Source: Magnetospira sp. QH-2 (GTDB lineage: Bacteria; Pseudomonadota; Alphaproteobacteria; Rhodospirillales; Magnetospiraceae). From it: a DNA stretch of 64,000 nt. The first letter of the stretch is position 1; every line of letters begins with the position of its first letter. This document shows positions 42,781-52,095 of the stretch, in pieces. The notes under the pieces are model-generated. The model was not told the origin of the DNA. It was given only the letters and a program-made list of their open reading frames with translations, and did no database searches. Position numbers and translations under genes: made by a program. The stretch lies in contig NZ_FO538765.1 of the NCBI RefSeq assembly GCF_000968135.1, forward strand, positions 3,672,501-3,736,500, in the 5' to 3' direction.

Positions 42781-43701
42781 ATGGCGGACATCACACTTTC
42801 GGACGCGGTTCGATCGAACCTGCTATCCCTGCAAAGCACTCAAGGGAAGATTGACCGGACTCAAAATCGTCTATCCACGGGCCTGAAAGTTGCCTCACCA
42901 ACCGATGACGCGGTGAAATTTTTCCAAGCCCAATCCTTGAGCAACCGCGCTACGTCCCTATTGGAACGTAAATCCGCGGTGGATCAGGGCATCCAGGCCT
43001 TGGACGCGACCTTGAAGGCTCTCGAATCCATCGAGGACTTCTCTTCTCAGCTCAAAGGTCTGGTCGATAGTTCCCGGTCCGCGGATGATGCCCAACGGGC
43101 GGAACTGCAAACCCAGGTCAACGAACTGGCCAAGCAGATCGAGAAGCTCATTGCCGATGCCACCTATCAGGGCTTGAACCTGTTGAACTCCTCGGCCTCG
43201 AAGCTGTCTGTCCGGTTCTCGGACAAATCGGACTCGAAGCTCGAAGTGACCGGCATCGATATCAACCCCAGCGCCCTGTATCGTAATTCGCTCGGTACCG
43301 GCTTTGTGGGGCAAACCCTTGACGCCAGTCAGGCCAACTTCGTCGAATCGTTCCTGGGCTTCGGACAGTCATTCGAAGGCTACGATCTGACCGATGCGAC
43401 CGAACTGGCCTCCTTCAATGCCCATGCGGACGTGGCCATCTCCCGCCTGGATGCCACCATTAGCTATCTGCAAGCGAAAGCAGGCTCCATGGCCAATAAC
43501 GTCGCCATCTTGCAAGTCCGGTCGGACTTCACCCAGGAATACGTGGACGTGTTGGACACCGGTGCCGGTAAGCTGACCGTGGCCGACCTCAACGAGGAAG
43601 GCGCCAACCTGCTGGCCCTGCAAACCCGCCAGCAGTTGGGCATTCAGTCCCTGGCCTTCGCCGGTCAGGCCGAACAATCCATCTTGGGTCTGTTCCGTTA
43701 A
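42781..43701 (+). CDS. Flagellin
   Basis: 306 residues with the conserved flagellin ends. The N-terminal coiled D0/D1 segment is LSDAVRSNLLSLQ, then RTQNRLSTGLKV. The C-terminal segment is FTQEYVDVLDTGAGKLTVADLNEEGANLLALQTRQQLG and ends in ILGLFR. The central variable domain is short, as in many alphaproteobacterial flagellins. There is no signal peptide, as expected for type III export. GAGGGAGC precedes the ATG. No other structural flagellar gene is in the window, so this is a detached filament gene. No confident sigma-28 or sigma-54 promoter was found in the 227-base upstream gap. Confidence 0.93.
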   Translation: MADITLSDAVRSNLLSLQSTQGKIDRTQNRLSTGLKVASPTDDAVKFFQAQSLSNRATSLLERKSAVDQGIQALDATLKALESIEDFSSQLKGLVDSSRSADDAQRAELQTQVNELAKQIEKLIADATYQGLNLLNSSASKLSVRFSDKSDSKLEVTGIDINPSALYRNSLGTGFVGQTLDASQANFVESFLGFGQSFEGYDLTDATELASFNAHADVAISRLDATISYLQAKAGSMANNVAILQVRSDFTQEYVDVLDTGAGKLTVADLNEEGANLLALQTRQQLGIQSLAFAGQAEQSILGLFR

Positions 43702-43723: not shown

Positions 43724-44272
43724 CTATAGGCTGCCCGGTTTGAACATTTCGATCAGGGTATGGGTAAGCATTTTTCTCAAGGCCTTGTCCTCGGGGCCGG
43801 TGATGCCCCTTGCAATGCCGCTGACCACGATGCGCGCCTGCTCCTTGGAGCAATAAACCGTATAGGCATGCACCTCGCCGTTGGCGCGCAGTTTCCCAAG
43901 GTCTGCAGGAACTGCCCCATCGCATATGTTTTGCGGAGACAAACCCTGAGGCGGCTCGAAAACGACAACAATGCGCTGGACAGGTTCGGCTGCCTGGTTC
44001 TTGTCGGTTGTGAAACGCACCCCGCCCAACTGCGGCATGCCGTTCTTAAATGCCTTGACGATCGTCCGTTCCAAGGGCGCCAGGTCGCCGCCAAAAGGAT
44101 TGCCACGGACATCCACCCAAAAGGGACCCTTTGAGGCCGCGTACTGGAAAAACGAGAAGTTGTCGCCCCCCTGCCGATACTCGACCACCGTCTGAAAAGG
44201 GACCTCTTCGCAGGCGGTGGCCGCCAGGGTCGCCAAACCACCGAGCACGGCGGCGATCTTGCGAAATACCAT
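43724..44272 (-). CDS. Small lipoprotein of unknown function
   Basis: 182 residues from the second ATG, which is 5 bases after AGGAGG; the first ATG overlaps that site too closely. A signal peptide ends in ATAC, with lipidation of Cys21 plausible. The rest is a mixed alpha/beta domain, with two later cysteines (ICDGAV and VYCSKE) that could form a disulfide. No family was recognised. It lies 26 bases after the FliM-motif protein gene on the same strand and is convergent with flagellin. Confidence 0.6.
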   Translation of the reverse strand: MVFRKIAAVLGGLATLAATACEEVPFQTVVEYRQGGDNFSFFQYAASKGPFWVDVRGNPFGGDLAPLERTIVKAFKNGMPQLGGVRFTTDKNQAAEPVQRIVVVFEPPQGLSPQNICDGAVPADLGKLRANGEVHAYTVYCSKEQARIVVSGIARGITGPEDKALRKMLTHTLIEMFKPGSL

Positions 44273-44298
44273 CATATCCTCCTCTGAAAATTCCCCGA

Positions 44299-44847
44299 TC
44301 AGTCGTTGAAAAGGGCGTCAATATCTGCCTGACTGGCGTGATCATCCGAGGTTGAATGGGTCTCTCCCCCCTTCATGACACCGTCGATTTCATCTTGGTG
44401 CATGACCGTTTCCCCGCCATGAATGATTCCGTTGGCCACGTCCCCAAGCTGACGCAACAAAGCCAACAAAGCCCGCGTGCGTATGCGGATGGTATCGGCC
44501 TGGCCCGATTGCAGCAGGTCCTCGATCCGCTCAAGGCAGGTCAGGATGACACTGTCCATCTGTTGAATGGTGGTTTCGAAGCGTTCACGAAACTGAGCCG
44601 GAACATGGTCATAGGCCTCCACAGCCAAATCCCGATCGGAAAAGCTGCTGTCCTTGAAATGCTCCTGATAGCTCTTGGGCCGCCATTCCCGGGCTTCTTC
44701 GTAGAGATCAGGCATATCCGGGATCATCTCCAACAACATAACGATTTCGTTGAAGTGATTCATGTAGTCGGTGGCCAATAAGGTCCGCGGACTGATATTG
44801 CTGCCCGCCACCTTGGCCTTGATTGACTCGTATTCGGAATGGCCCAC
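44299..44847 (-). CDS. Unrecognised helical protein with two C-terminal FliM-like motifs
   Basis: 182 residues from a GTG at 44847 with GGAGG 10 bases upstream; the open frame continues to 45003 but would overlap the cimA promoter region. The body is helical (about 20-145), with no membrane segment or signal. The C-terminus carries two copies of a short motif: HQDEIDGVM (150-158) and SQADIDALF (172-180). Both resemble the N-terminal CheY-binding peptide of the flagellar switch protein FliM (SQAEIDALL in E. coli). With flagellin 600 bases away, a role in binding CheY-type proteins is a reasonable guess. It is not a recognisable CheZ. Confidence 0.65.
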   Translation of the reverse strand: MGHSEYESIKAKVAGSNISPRTLLATDYMNHFNEIVMLLEMIPDMPDLYEEAREWRPKSYQEHFKDSSFSDRDLAVEAYDHVPAQFRERFETTIQQMDSVILTCLERIEDLLQSGQADTIRIRTRALLALLRQLGDVANGIIHGGETVMHQDEIDGVMKGGETHSTSDDHASQADIDALFND

Positions 44848-44995
44848 GGTGGCCGCCCCTCCAAACAGGCGGATAATCAAGGGGTCACCATATCCGGTTG
44901 AATCGGCAAGGCCAAGACGAATTACCGTGGTTCTTCCTTGTAAGCACTGGAAGGATTGGGCATTCTCCGGCTCTCTTCCAAAGGAGACCAGGATC

Positions 44996-46588
44996 ATGAC
45001 CAAGGAACGGGTCTATCTGTACGACTGCACCCTGCGCGACGGGGCCCAGACCCAGGGCGTCGATTTCAGCGCCGCCGACAAAACCGCCATCGCCCAGGAC
45101 CTGGACCGGCTGGGCATCGATTACGTGGAAGGCGGTTGGCCAGGCGCCAACCCCACCGATGACGCCTTTTTCGGCCATCTGCCGCAGCTGACCCACGGTC
45201 GATTCAGCGCCTTCGGCATGACCCACCGCCCGGGCCGTTCGGTGGAGAACGATCCGGGCTTGCAGGCGATCCTCGATGTGGCGGTGCCGGTGGCCTGCAT
45301 CGTCGGCAAAACCTGGGACTTCCACGCGGAAGTGGCCTTGGGCATCACCACCGAGGAAAACATCTCCATCGTCGCCGAGTCCATCCGCCATGCCACCACC
45401 CGCAAGGAAGAGGTGCTGTTCGACGCCGAGCATTTTTTCGATGGCTACAAAGCCAATCCCTCGTTCGCGCTGGCATGCCTGAAGGCCGCCTATGACAACG
45501 GCGCTCGTTGGATCGTCCTTTGCGACACCAATGGCGGCACCCTGCCCCATGAAATCGAGGCCATCGTCACCGAGATCACCCAGCATATCCCCGGAGACCG
45601 TCTGGGCATCCACTGCCACGACGATACCGGCAACGCAGTGGCCAACAGCCTGGCCGCCGTGCGGGCCGGGGTGCGGCAGGTACAAGGCACCTTGAACGGC
45701 CTCGGCGAACGCTGCGGCAATGCCAATCTGGTTTCGATCATTCCGTCCTTGGTGCTCAAGATGGGCTATGACACCGGCATTGACCCCAACCAGTTGACCC
45801 AGCTGACCCACGTCTCCCGCACATTGGAAGAACGCCTCAACCGGCAGCCGGACCGGGGCGCGCCCTATGTAGGCGAGAGCGCCTTTGCCCATAAGGGTGG
45901 CCTTCATGTATCGGCGGTGGAAAAGGATCCGCGCTCCTATGAGCATGTGGTTCCGGAACTGGTGGGCAATCACCGCCATATCGTTATTTCCGATCAGGCC
46001 GGACGATCCAACATCCTGTCGCGCTTTCGCGAGCTGGGCATCGACCTGGAAGACAATGACGATGGCGTGCGCAAGCTCTTGGAAACGGTCAAGGCACGCG
46101 AGTTCGACGGCTATGCCTATGACGGCGCTGAAGCCAGTTTCGCTCTGTTGGCCCATCAGGCTTTGGGCGGCGTGCCGAAGTATTTCCGTTGCAGCAGTTT
46201 CCGGGTCATTGATGAACGGCGCTGGGACAACAACGACCGGCTGATCACCCTGTCCGAGGCGACGGTCAAACTGGAAGCCCGGGGGGAAAGCTATATGTCC
46301 GTGGCCGAGGGCAATGGCCCGGTCAATGCCCTGGATGCCGCCATGCGCAAGGTGCTGACTCCTATCTACCCCGGTCTTTCCGACATGCACCTCGTGGACT
46401 ACAAGGTGCGGATCCTGACCCCCCAGGCGGGCACCGGCGCGGTCACCCGGGTGATGATCGAAAGCGCCAACGGCAACCGCGAAAGCTGGACCACCGTCGG
46501 CGTCTCCACCAACATCATCGACGCCTCGTACAACGCCCTGCGTGACGCGATTGTCTACAAGCTTTTTCAAGACGGAGTCAGGGACTGA
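44996..46588 (+). CDS. cimA: (R)-citramalate synthase
   Basis: 530-residue member of the isopropylmalate-synthase family. The N-terminal TIM barrel has YDCTLRDGAQ (metal-binding Asp and catalytic Arg), GGWPGANPTDDAFF and the metal motif HCHDDTGNAVANS. The C-terminal LeuA-type allosteric domain (about 405-525) is present. The YVEGGWPGAN motif and total length place it in the CimA group, which condenses pyruvate and acetyl-CoA for the isoleucine route, and not LeuA. A group of LeuA-like paralogues of unknown substrate exists, so activity is inferred. AAGGAG precedes the ATG. Confidence 0.88.
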   Translation: MTKERVYLYDCTLRDGAQTQGVDFSAADKTAIAQDLDRLGIDYVEGGWPGANPTDDAFFGHLPQLTHGRFSAFGMTHRPGRSVENDPGLQAILDVAVPVACIVGKTWDFHAEVALGITTEENISIVAESIRHATTRKEEVLFDAEHFFDGYKANPSFALACLKAAYDNGARWIVLCDTNGGTLPHEIEAIVTEITQHIPGDRLGIHCHDDTGNAVANSLAAVRAGVRQVQGTLNGLGERCGNANLVSIIPSLVLKMGYDTGIDPNQLTQLTHVSRTLEERLNRQPDRGAPYVGESAFAHKGGLHVSAVEKDPRSYEHVVPELVGNHRHIVISDQAGRSNILSRFRELGIDLEDNDDGVRKLLETVKAREFDGYAYDGAEASFALLAHQALGGVPKYFRCSSFRVIDERRWDNNDRLITLSEATVKLEARGESYMSVAEGNGPVNALDAAMRKVLTPIYPGLSDMHLVDYKVRILTPQAGTGAVTRVMIESANGNRESWTTVGVSTNIIDASYNALRDAIVYKLFQDGVRD

Positions 46589-49880: not shown

Positions 49881-49904
49881 GATTCAAATTTCAAGTGCAA
49901 CACC
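49881..49904. repeat. IS30 terminal inverted repeat, left
   Basis: 24-bp end of the IS30-family element. The transposase stop codon lies inside it. Confidence 0.82.
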
Positions 49905-50852
49905 GATTGATTTGGCGAATGCCTCGATTGGCGTGAGGAAACCGAGGCATTTTCGGGGCGTTGTGTTGTAGGTCCATGTGATGTCCTCGATGTCTTGATC
50001 GGAGAATTTATTGAGGCGAATGTGCCTGGGCAGGCTGCGGCGCAGGACGCCGTTGGCGTTCTCGATGGAGCCGCGCTGCCAGGGGGAATGGGGATCGCAA
50101 AAGAAGGCGCGCACAGGCAGGCTCTTGTGGTCGTAGAACTCGCCGCCGTTGTCCAGGGTGACGGTTTTCCGGGCCCGTTTGGGCGCACGGTTGAGCAGCC
50201 TGGCCAGCGCCTCGGCGGTGGTGCGGGCGGTTTTGTCTGGAAGGGTCGCGGTGAGCAGCAGCCGAGACCGCCGCTCGATACAGGTGAGCAAACAGGCCCG
50301 TTGCTTGCGGAAATGCACCAGATCGGCCTCCCAATGGCCCGGCTCGGCGCGCAGATGGGCCTTGGTCGGGCGCATGTGGATCGGCATCCGGTCGGGGATC
50401 GGCGGATCGCGCCGCCCTTTTCGGGCCCGTCGTCCGCGACGGGATTTGGCCTGCGGCAACAGGCGGTGGAGCTTCTGCCGCCGCCCGTGGGGCCCGTAGA
50501 TCCAGGCATAGATTGTCTCGGCGCTGACGGTATGCTCTGATCCTTCGAGCTTGAGCCTTCCGGCGATCTGCTCCGGGCTCTGTTCCATAGCAAGTGCATC
50601 CAGGATGTGGGTTTTCAGAGGGCTCAAGCGCTCGATTTTCGGCAGGCGGCGTTTGCGCGCCCAGGCCATGCGCTCGGCCATGGCCGGCTTGTATCCGGCC
50701 CGGGGCAGCGCGTTGCGCTTCAATTCCCGGCCAATGGTCGAGGCCGAGCGGCCCATCAGCCGCCCAATGGCCCGTTGAGATTTACCGTCTGCATGCAGAC
50801 GGTAAATCTCGCATCGTTCGTCCAAGCTGACGTGTGCATATTTCTGTCCCAT
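49884..50852 (-). CDS. IS30-family transposase
   Basis: 322-residue DDE transposase. The N-terminal helix-turn-helix (about 9-45, SQRAIGRLMGRSASTIGREL) binds the ends. The RNase H-like core has D177 (HWEADLVHF), D234 (VTLDNGGEF) and E264 (GSIENANG). Length and motifs are complete, so it may be active. A perfect 34-bp palindrome occupies codons 15-25, which encode EIYRLHADGKS. Confidence 0.93.
   Translation of the reverse strand: MGQKYAHVSLDERCEIYRLHADGKSQRAIGRLMGRSASTIGRELKRNALPRAGYKPAMAERMAWARKRRLPKIERLSPLKTHILDALAMEQSPEQIAGRLKLEGSEHTVSAETIYAWIYGPHGRRQKLHRLLPQAKSRRGRRARKGRRDPPIPDRMPIHMRPTKAHLRAEPGHWEADLVHFRKQRACLLTCIERRSRLLLTATLPDKTARTTAEALARLLNRAPKRARKTVTLDNGGEFYDHKSLPVRAFFCDPHSPWQRGSIENANGVLRRSLPRHIRLNKFSDQDIEDITWTYNTTPRKCLGFLTPIEAFAKSIGVALEI
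50777..50810. repeat. Perfect 34-bp palindrome inside the IS30 transposase gene
   Basis: GAGATTTACCGTCTGCA is followed directly by its exact reverse complement, with no loop. It lies about 45-75 bases after the transposase start codon, in the helix-turn-helix coding region. In mRNA it would form a 17-bp hairpin minus a short loop, which could slow ribosomes or expose a cleavage site; as DNA it could extrude a cruciform. Confidence 0.9.
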
Positions 50853-50991: not shown

Positions 50992-51063
50992 AGCTGGTCT
51001 CCACACTCGGTCTTGATCAAGTATCCGGGTCAATTCCTGGACATGGAACAGAGGAGACCAGCT
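50992..51063 (+). promoter_or_regulatory. Long-range hairpin masking the IS110 transposase ribosome site
   Basis: AGCTGGTCTCC (50992-51002) is the exact reverse complement of GGAGACCAGCT (51053-51063), which includes the GGAGA ribosome site directly before the ATG at 51064. Pairing across the 50-base loop would hide the site and limit transposase synthesis. The same stem could instead belong to a structured RNA of the element. Confidence 0.6.
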
Positions 51064-52095
51064 ATGGAGTATTTTGTTGGAATGGACGTATCGATGGCAA
51101 GCATTTCGATCTGTGAGATTGATGCAAAGGGAACCGTCATTCGCGAAGGCAAGGTGTCAAGCACACCCGAGGCGGTCGCCACTTGGCTCGAGGAAAGCGG
51201 GCGTGGCTTTGCGCGAATTGGGTTGGAAGCTGGCCCTCTGGCGCCTTGGCTGTACGCAGGACTGTCCAGTCGGGGCCTCCCTGTGATTTGTATCGAGACC
51301 CGGCAAATGAAGGCCTTTGCCAGCGCCAGCCCAGTCAAGACGGACCGTCGCGACGCCCGCTTGATCAGCCAGGCGATGCGGACCGGTTTGTACCGCGCGA
51401 CCCACGTCAAGACCGCGCGCAGTCAGGAGCTCCGGATGGTGCTGACCCATCGGGAGACCCTGGTTCATCAGGTCCGTCAGTTGTCCAATACGGTACGAGG
51501 AACATTGAAAGCTTTCGGCCTCAAGGTCGGTATGGCGCGCGGACGCCTTTTCGCGGCGCGGGTTCGGGAATTGACGGCTGATAACCCGCACCTCAGCGCA
51601 GCCGCCGAGCCGCTCTTGCTTGCGCGCCAAGCCTTGCTCGAACAACTCGACAAGCTCGACCGGCAGGTTCATGCCGCTGCGCGCGATGATAGCGTTTGCC
51701 GGCGCCTGATGACCGTTCCCGGCGTCGGCCCGGTTACCGCCCTCGCTTTCAGGACAGGACTCGACGTGCCGGAACGGTTTCAAAAGTCGGTCATGGTCGG
51801 CGCCCACTTCGGGCTTGTCCCACGCAGATACGCCTCGGGAGAGCAGGACCGAAGCGGCCCCATCAGCAAGTGCGGAGATGCCATGGTTCGTTGGCTTTTG
51901 TTCGAGGCCGCCAATGCACTTCTCACTCGAACCCGCCGTTGGTCCTGGCTCAAACACTGGGGGCTCGCGGTCGCCAAAAGGCGCGGGATGAAACGCGCCA
52001 AGGTCGCCGTTGCCCGGCGTCTCGCCGTAATCATGCATCGCATGTGGATCGACGGCACGGACTTCCAGTACCGCAAGGAGGAGACCGCCATCTAA
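51064..52095 (+). CDS. IS110-family transposase/recombinase
   Basis: 343 residues. The N-terminal RuvC-like domain has the DEDD set at D8 (FVGMDVSM), E55 (IGLEAGPL), D94 and D97 (KTDRRDARL). A coiled segment follows, and the C-terminal Transposase_20 domain (about 215-300) has the helix-hairpin-helix-like TVPGVGPVTALAFRTG and HFGLVPRRYASGE. AGAGGAGA lies upstream of the ATG. The frame extends to 51013 without a ribosome site. The protein looks full-length and possibly active. Confidence 0.92.
   Translation: MEYFVGMDVSMASISICEIDAKGTVIREGKVSSTPEAVATWLEESGRGFARIGLEAGPLAPWLYAGLSSRGLPVICIETRQMKAFASASPVKTDRRDARLISQAMRTGLYRATHVKTARSQELRMVLTHRETLVHQVRQLSNTVRGTLKAFGLKVGMARGRLFAARVRELTADNPHLSAAAEPLLLARQALLEQLDKLDRQVHAAARDDSVCRRLMTVPGVGPVTALAFRTGLDVPERFQKSVMVGAHFGLVPRRYASGEQDRSGPISKCGDAMVRWLLFEAANALLTRTRRWSWLKHWGLAVAKRRGMKRAKVAVARRLAVIMHRMWIDGTDFQYRKEETAI

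Follow-up and report, generated by a model that had tools for sequence, protein, structure and literature searches.

A protein of 182 residues encoded in a 64,000-nucleotide stretch of the Magnetospira sp. QH-2 genome (NZ_FO538765.1, positions 3,672,501 to 3,736,500; hereafter the window) is a probable, so far overlooked, partner of CheY-type signal proteins. It belongs to an unannotated, conserved alphaproteobacterial family, whose members would each combine two parts, a helical body and a C-terminal tail bearing one or more CheZ-type QxxIDxLF-like peptides. We propose that the tail, folded as a short helix, binds a CheY-type receiver at the face also used by the FliM and CheZ peptides and would thereby tether the receiver to the body; that several peptides in series would increase avidity or allow two or more receivers to be bound; and that the family protein would draw on the same receiver pool as CheZ instead of being a component of the flagellar motor. 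We put the probability of this tethering as a whole, which does not require a phosphatase activity, at about 0.6; the binding of a receiver by the tail, taken by itself, is quite likely. The relevant features, in coordinates of the window, are the following:

44299..44847, minus strand: coding region for the 182-residue protein, from the GTG start codon to the stop at 44299-44301; homologues found
44858..44862, minus strand: GGAGG, a possible ribosome-binding site (by inference), 10 nt upstream of the GTG
44725..44772, minus strand: helix 26-41 (TDYMNHFNEIVMLLEM), containing the family's most conserved stretch, with D27 and N30 as a putative acid/amide pair
44374..44400, minus strand: motif 1, HQDEIDGVM, residues 150-158, in the predicted helix 151-160; conserved in homologues
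44335..44373, minus strand: inter-motif linker of low confidence, probably flexible (pLDDT <50 at 163-166 and 168-170)
44308..44334, minus strand: motif 2, SQADIDALF, residues 172-180, in the predicted helix 173-180 and two residues from the C-terminus
43724..44275, minus strand: downstream gene for a protein of 183 aa, lipoprotein-like by eye, with no Pfam match at E 0.01
42781-43701, plus strand: flagellin (Flagellin_N E 3.5e-14; Flagellin_C match only at cut-off)

The plus-strand frame across 44299-44847 is interrupted by stops, and the coding strand is the minus strand, on which the ORF extends upstream as far as a TTG at 45003; the GTG is the preferred start because the GGAGG sits 10 nt ahead of it. 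A sigma-70 scan for this gene did not find a promoter. The earlier note had presented the protein as unrecognised, helical and devoid of FliM domains, and the first and last of these hold in profile searches, which assigned it to no family and hence to none with an unrelated function: no family was returned from Pfam (hmmscan), FliM included, or from NCBIfam, both searched up to E 10. The best values against PHROGs were only 0.099 and 0.15 and the best E against PDB sequences was 0.077, leaving no credible family or PDB match, and PADLOC reported none for this protein. The last 35 residues found nothing among PDB chains of at least 20 residues, and a scan of 49 family members against the profile libraries yielded nothing beyond weak, scattered matches, the strongest being 0.0011 for a single member.

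Homologues occur in 38 of 60 order-level relatives and in 72 of 385 genomes of the class. A search of genome contigs confirmed at least 476 of at least 596 stretches, of which 80 were retained; the named matches listed are from Rhodospirillales genera, e.g., Thalassospira, Azospirillum, Novispirillum, and Magnetospirillum, with one record titled Roseomonas. A sample of the phylum (299 genomes, class members included) gave 22 matches within the class and one marginal match outside it (G638, E 8.4e-4), in a 608-residue frame that lacks the helix-26 signature. Plasmid records contributed 11 matches, all from Azospirillum, one of them being WP_111068551.1, annotated as a hypothetical protein, and we found no description of the family among the papers listed from the open-licence literature on chemotaxis and the motif. 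Possible domain fusions in two homologues (L002 and L013) were rejected: their long open frames have no Pfam match and are therefore probably chance open frames.

Both C-terminal peptides named in the earlier note, HQDEIDGVM and SQADIDALF, are present in the minus-strand translation, and their assignment to the FliM-like, receiver-binding type is borne out by the sequence and by their conservation among homologues. The tail motif exceeds chance. When Q-x-[DE]-I-D-x-[LF], with limited x, is written as a degenerate DNA pattern, which does not cover motif 1 (V at the seventh place), it has five matches in the whole 4.05 Mb genome, against none for the reversed control pattern; three of the five are in frame, viz., near the N-terminus of FliM, at the C-terminus of CheZ, and at motif 2 of the 182-residue protein, and the other two, to which we attach no meaning, lie at the end of a coiled-coil-like ORF and at a site in frame with no ORF of at least 100 aa. 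A strict form of the motif (Q..[IV]D.[LIMFYVA][LIMFYVA]), counted only in the residues after the body, is found in all 30 of the relatives' loci returned by the order-level search (shuffled tails expect 0.07), in 79 of 79 genome-contig ORFs (expectation 0.16; an 80th, L103, dropped out because another ORF overlapped it), and in 58 of 68 class-level sequences (expectation 0.23), which were supplied by 68 of the 72 matched class genomes. These three sets overlap by a few sequences, the window protein itself sitting in two of them as L001 and L121. Four of the ten class-level sequences without the strict motif have a near form and two have no tail to test, and among 14 further divergent sequences the strict motif is present in two, a near form in six, and neither in six. 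The earlier note had looked to orthologues lacking the motifs as evidence to the contrary; such orthologues are a minority among the class-level sequences (these 10 of 68), but in the further divergent set the strict form is missing from 12 of 14. Tails with at least two strict motifs belong to 7 of the 30 relatives, 2 of the 79 genome-contig ORFs, and 7 of the 68 class-level sequences. In L002, a relative from the same GTDB family as the window, the tail contains the strict motif five times, four copies being within near-identical AGQADIDALFDGPPPPSSEP repeats, and an extra degenerate copy at the end. Many divergent members terminate in QxxIDxLF, sometimes with one additional residue, and the preceding linkers differ in length.

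Place, linker and letters of the tail are all closer to CheZ tails than to FliM; on these grounds we set aside a FliM-like adaptor as the first comparison, and CheZ is, by the sequences, the better one. In the genome of the window, which has one CheZ match, the CheZ tail reads NQEDIDALFD, that of the 182-residue protein SQADIDALFND, and the FliM site NQDEIDSLL. Each of 27 CheZ ORFs from ten family-bearing genomes has the motif in its C-terminal part; a script detected it in 26, and in L167 it was seen by eye. In a second set of genomes, many of which lack the motif in the family protein, it is present in the last 45 residues of 14 of 16 CheZ ORFs (L234 and L238 being the exceptions) and anywhere past the active site in all 16. 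The C-terminal place of the peptides had been thought odd, but E. coli CheZ is described as owing its main CheY-P affinity to a short, flexibly tethered helix at the C-terminus (PMC1447658), the C-terminal CheY-binding region is described as conserved in an alphaproteobacterial CheZ (PMC7750401), and CheZ proteins of the same genomes have nearly the same letters there. Nor is the doubling unusual, since four of the CheZ ORFs (L163, L166, L168, L249) have two or three strict C-terminal peptides each; in L163 and L168 long proline- and alanine-rich stretches separate them. The tail is of a known kind, and it is the family that is new to the libraries searched. A divergent CheZ is rejected as the identity of the protein because the bodies fail to align (hhalign probability 0.94 of 100, E 0.058); with the tails included, the alignment to CheZ picks out the tail, at probability 87 over 30 columns. 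The CheZ ORFs of these genomes contain the FQDxxGQ stretch with the catalytic DxxxQ; it is absent from the 182-residue protein, and no such conserved columns occur in 127 aligned homologues.

The predicted model of the 182-residue protein (mean pLDDT 89.7, pTM 0.79, 49 sequences) is all-helical, in agreement with the earlier note, with helices at residues 3-13 and 26-41, short ones, long ones at 84-114 and 117-142, and the tail helices at 151-160 and 173-180; confidence drops around residues 163-170, and the conserved all-helical body comprises about 145 residues. Among the 133 PDB matches that Foldseek reported at E values up to 10, none reached 0.001. The best VIA-align match, an apolipoprotein E bundle (Z 8.2), falls within the common arrangement for helical bundles, and CheZ, whose fold is a long helical hairpin that forms a dimeric four-helix bundle, is absent among the VIA-align structure matches listed, which are only generic bundles. 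An alignment of 127 sequences, from which the fragments or duplicates L121, L175, L203, and L204 and the marginal L232 were excluded, has its most conserved part at residues 24-37, with N30 in 127, D27 in 126, and N33 and E34 in 124 each; W55 and Y60 are invariant. In L225, a homologue that is very divergent, D27 is replaced by N and N33 by I. The hydrophobic moment of helix 26-41 is unremarkable (518 of 5000 shuffles are as high), and the idea of a polar stripe along it is thus unsupported. The case for a phospho-histidine (HPt-like) body using H31 is weakened by variation at this position, which is H in 116 of the 127 aligned sequences and, in a set of 146, has L, V, R, or T in six; a folding core could explain the conserved W, Y, and H residues just as well.

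Receiver phosphatases are described as inserting an acid and an amide into the receiver active site (PMC3035606). As CheX is reported to require ExxN and CheZ DxxxQ (PMC3510030), D27xxN30 would fit this pattern, and D27 and N30, placed three residues apart on one helix, might take the acid and amide roles in receiver dephosphorylation. A receiver phosphatase acting through D27xxN30 is therefore our leading guess for the body, and a tentative one: even if binding is granted, this step is somewhat doubtful. A bolder version, which we consider unlikely, would make the family a fourth kind of dedicated CheY-P phosphatase: its body, without kinship to CheZ, CheC/CheX, or the Rap proteins, would have arrived at the same acid-plus-amide chemistry (D27xxN30), and the CheZ grip would be present in one to several copies, across hundreds of alphaproteobacterial species and partly outside chemotaxis. 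Alternatively, the protein might be a non-catalytic sink or localiser, with the tails keeping phosphorylated receivers off the motor or at a place in the cell that the body, as a scaffold, would select. Multivalent tails, such as the five motifs of L002 and the two in the window protein and a handful of relatives, would suit capture, and Azorhizobium CheZ, for which a helical region at the N-terminus is described as directing it to the poles with no dependence on chemotaxis or flagellar proteins (PMC7750401), makes the union of such a tail with a localising body a known design. Four near-invariant polar residues on one helix seem to us, however, excessive for a plain scaffold, and we rate this alternative as rather unlikely.

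The phyletic distribution of the family tracks that of CheZ more than that of FliM or the flagellum. The 385 class genomes include 72 with the family, 148 with CheZ, and 213 with FliM; the family and CheZ occur together in 66, the family alone in 6, CheZ alone in 82, and neither in 231 (odds ratio 31, kinship ignored), so that CheZ is present in 66 of 72 family-bearing genomes vs 82 of the 313 others. FliM, which is far commoner overall, accompanies the family in 64 of the 72 (odds ratio 8.8, kinship ignored). The family is found in 61 of 137 FliM-bearing class genomes with CheZ as against 3 of 76 without it, and in 5 of 11 FliM-less genomes with CheZ as against 3 of 161 without it. When the 60 relatives are counted by GTDB family, 20 have both, two only the family under study, one only CheZ, and eight neither (Fisher p 4.7e-5). 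Genomes with any CheZ match have one to six, and four FliM-bearing genomes with neither CheZ nor the family include one with CheW. We count against the proposed tethering the 82 of 148 CheZ-bearing class genomes in which the family is missing. Together, the counts indicate that the family accompanies CheZ, and often chemosensory genes, without requiring the flagellum. The term "motility adaptor", used in the earlier note, is accordingly too narrow, because the association with CheZ is the stronger one and because the family is present in genomes in which neither FliM nor CheW was detected: among 13 family-bearing genomes without FliM, CheW was found in seven and not in the other six (G009, G033, G102, G171, G221, G267), four of which (G102, G171, G221, G267) are at least 97% complete. 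Two of these (G102 and G267, 97-98% complete) have a CheZ match alongside the family, which raises the question of a CheZ acting outside chemotaxis.

The body and the tail do not always go together. In a tree of the 127 bodies, which rests on few columns and has many unresolved forks, at least seven changes are needed to account for the 17 rows that lack the motif under a looser rule. One lineage of seven sequences (f199: L137, L220, L221, L228-L231) has EADVDTIM/EADxDxIM-like tails that lack the Q, with the CheZ of each of the seven genomes retaining QxDIDALF, and members of another (f100) have the body without the strict motif, CheZ not being detected there; the body would therefore be useful without such a tail. 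Conversely, L143 from genome G171 (98% complete) has the body and the motif, with CheZ, FliM, and CheW not found. These three cases, which we also count against the proposed tethering, suggest that body and tail are separable, and that the receiver is not necessarily a motor CheY.

The gene had been described as lying next to flagellin. The flagellin gene is indeed close by, but it is on the opposite strand with one gene between, and the neighbourhood is not conserved: tblastn of the flagellin and the intervening gene against 110 homologue loci, 30 of which hold only about 1.5 kb of flank, found only those of the window itself. Hence, a function by association with flagellin was rejected. The downstream gene (43724..44275) could be co-transcribed with that of the 182-residue protein, and is probably outside the system because it is not found beside homologues. 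The flagellin gene is also distant from the FliM region (FliM at C1:2273450, the window at C1:3672501), and a PF02154 search found a single place for FliM in the genome, elsewhere than the 182-residue protein. In 80 loci, the commonest neighbour clusters occur in at most 27; by eye, we take the commonest neighbours to be housekeeping genes (cysS, nadE, cimA, aroG, purU, rlmH), and no chemotaxis genes were recognised by eye beside the homologues of these 80 loci. Further along the window, two adjacent ORFs at 49884-50852 (minus strand) and 51013-52095 (plus strand) presumably code, as judged by eye, for IS30-like and IS110-like transposases. In 14 of the 80 loci, all Azospirillum-like (cluster 8), and likewise at L250:2251-3054, a response regulator gene lies nearby on the opposite strand in divergent orientation, and its product combines, by eye, a sigma-factor-like part with a receiver.

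These divergent response regulator genes would accord with an output protein, whose body would have an activity that is unrelated to the receiver's phosphate, possibly lies outside motility, and is switched when a phosphorylated CheY-type receiver binds to the tail, as would the survival of the body without the strict motif in some lineages and the six FliM-less genomes, four of them at least 97% complete, in which CheW was not found. We regard such a role as unlikely, given that the profile searches recognised neither a catalytic nor a binding domain in the body and that the tight association with CheZ points to the phosphate cycle of the receiver. That the tail only resembles a CheY-binding peptide, and serves, e.g., dimerisation with the body or a non-receiver partner, would be consistent with motif 1 abutting the body and being predicted as a helix without a partner (block pLDDT 82-89), but is quite unlikely in view of the letters shared with the CheZ tails of the same genomes and of a terminal copy behind variable linkers, which fits a tether and not a fixed internal contact.

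The tethering of receivers that we favour would bear on the many alphaproteobacteria equipped with multiple CheY-type receivers and, often, multiple CheZ-like proteins. In these organisms, a further conserved protein with the receiver grip of CheZ would be a missing player in the sharing or removal of phosphate, and would offer a handle on which receivers use one common docking peptide; if it also works in genomes without a flagellum, the same grip would be used outside chemotaxis.

Among known systems, the nearest is CheZ (PF04344), with which the family shares a C-terminal peptide that is, by sequence, of the receiver-binding type and spelled alike, a preceding linker that low pLDDT suggests is flexible, a helical body, the genomes in which it occurs, and a tail that is doubled in some members; it differs in that the body of the 182-residue protein has no detectable homology to CheZ, no Pfam match, and no FQDxxGQ. 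The N-terminal peptide of FliM, for which an EIDALL motif is described (PMC9126983), is of the same type, as is evident from NQDEIDSLL in the FliM of the same genome; in contrast, the 182-residue protein has its peptide at the C-terminus, repeated and without a FliM domain. CheC, CheX, and FliY (ExxN) likewise have an acid and an amide three residues apart on a helix, comparable to the putative D27xxN30 pair, but the 182-residue protein matches no Pfam or NCBIfam family up to E 10 and has a CheZ-like tail. Finally, CheT of Sinorhizobium meliloti is described as acting on CheY-P with a DxxxQ motif and a CheZ-like predicted fold, and as encoded in a che cluster (PMC12654446). Like the family, it is a small helical alphaproteobacterial protein outside the E. 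coli paradigm (PMC12654446); judged by that description, the family is set apart from it, as its 127 aligned homologues have no conserved DxxxQ and no che genes were recognised around its own.
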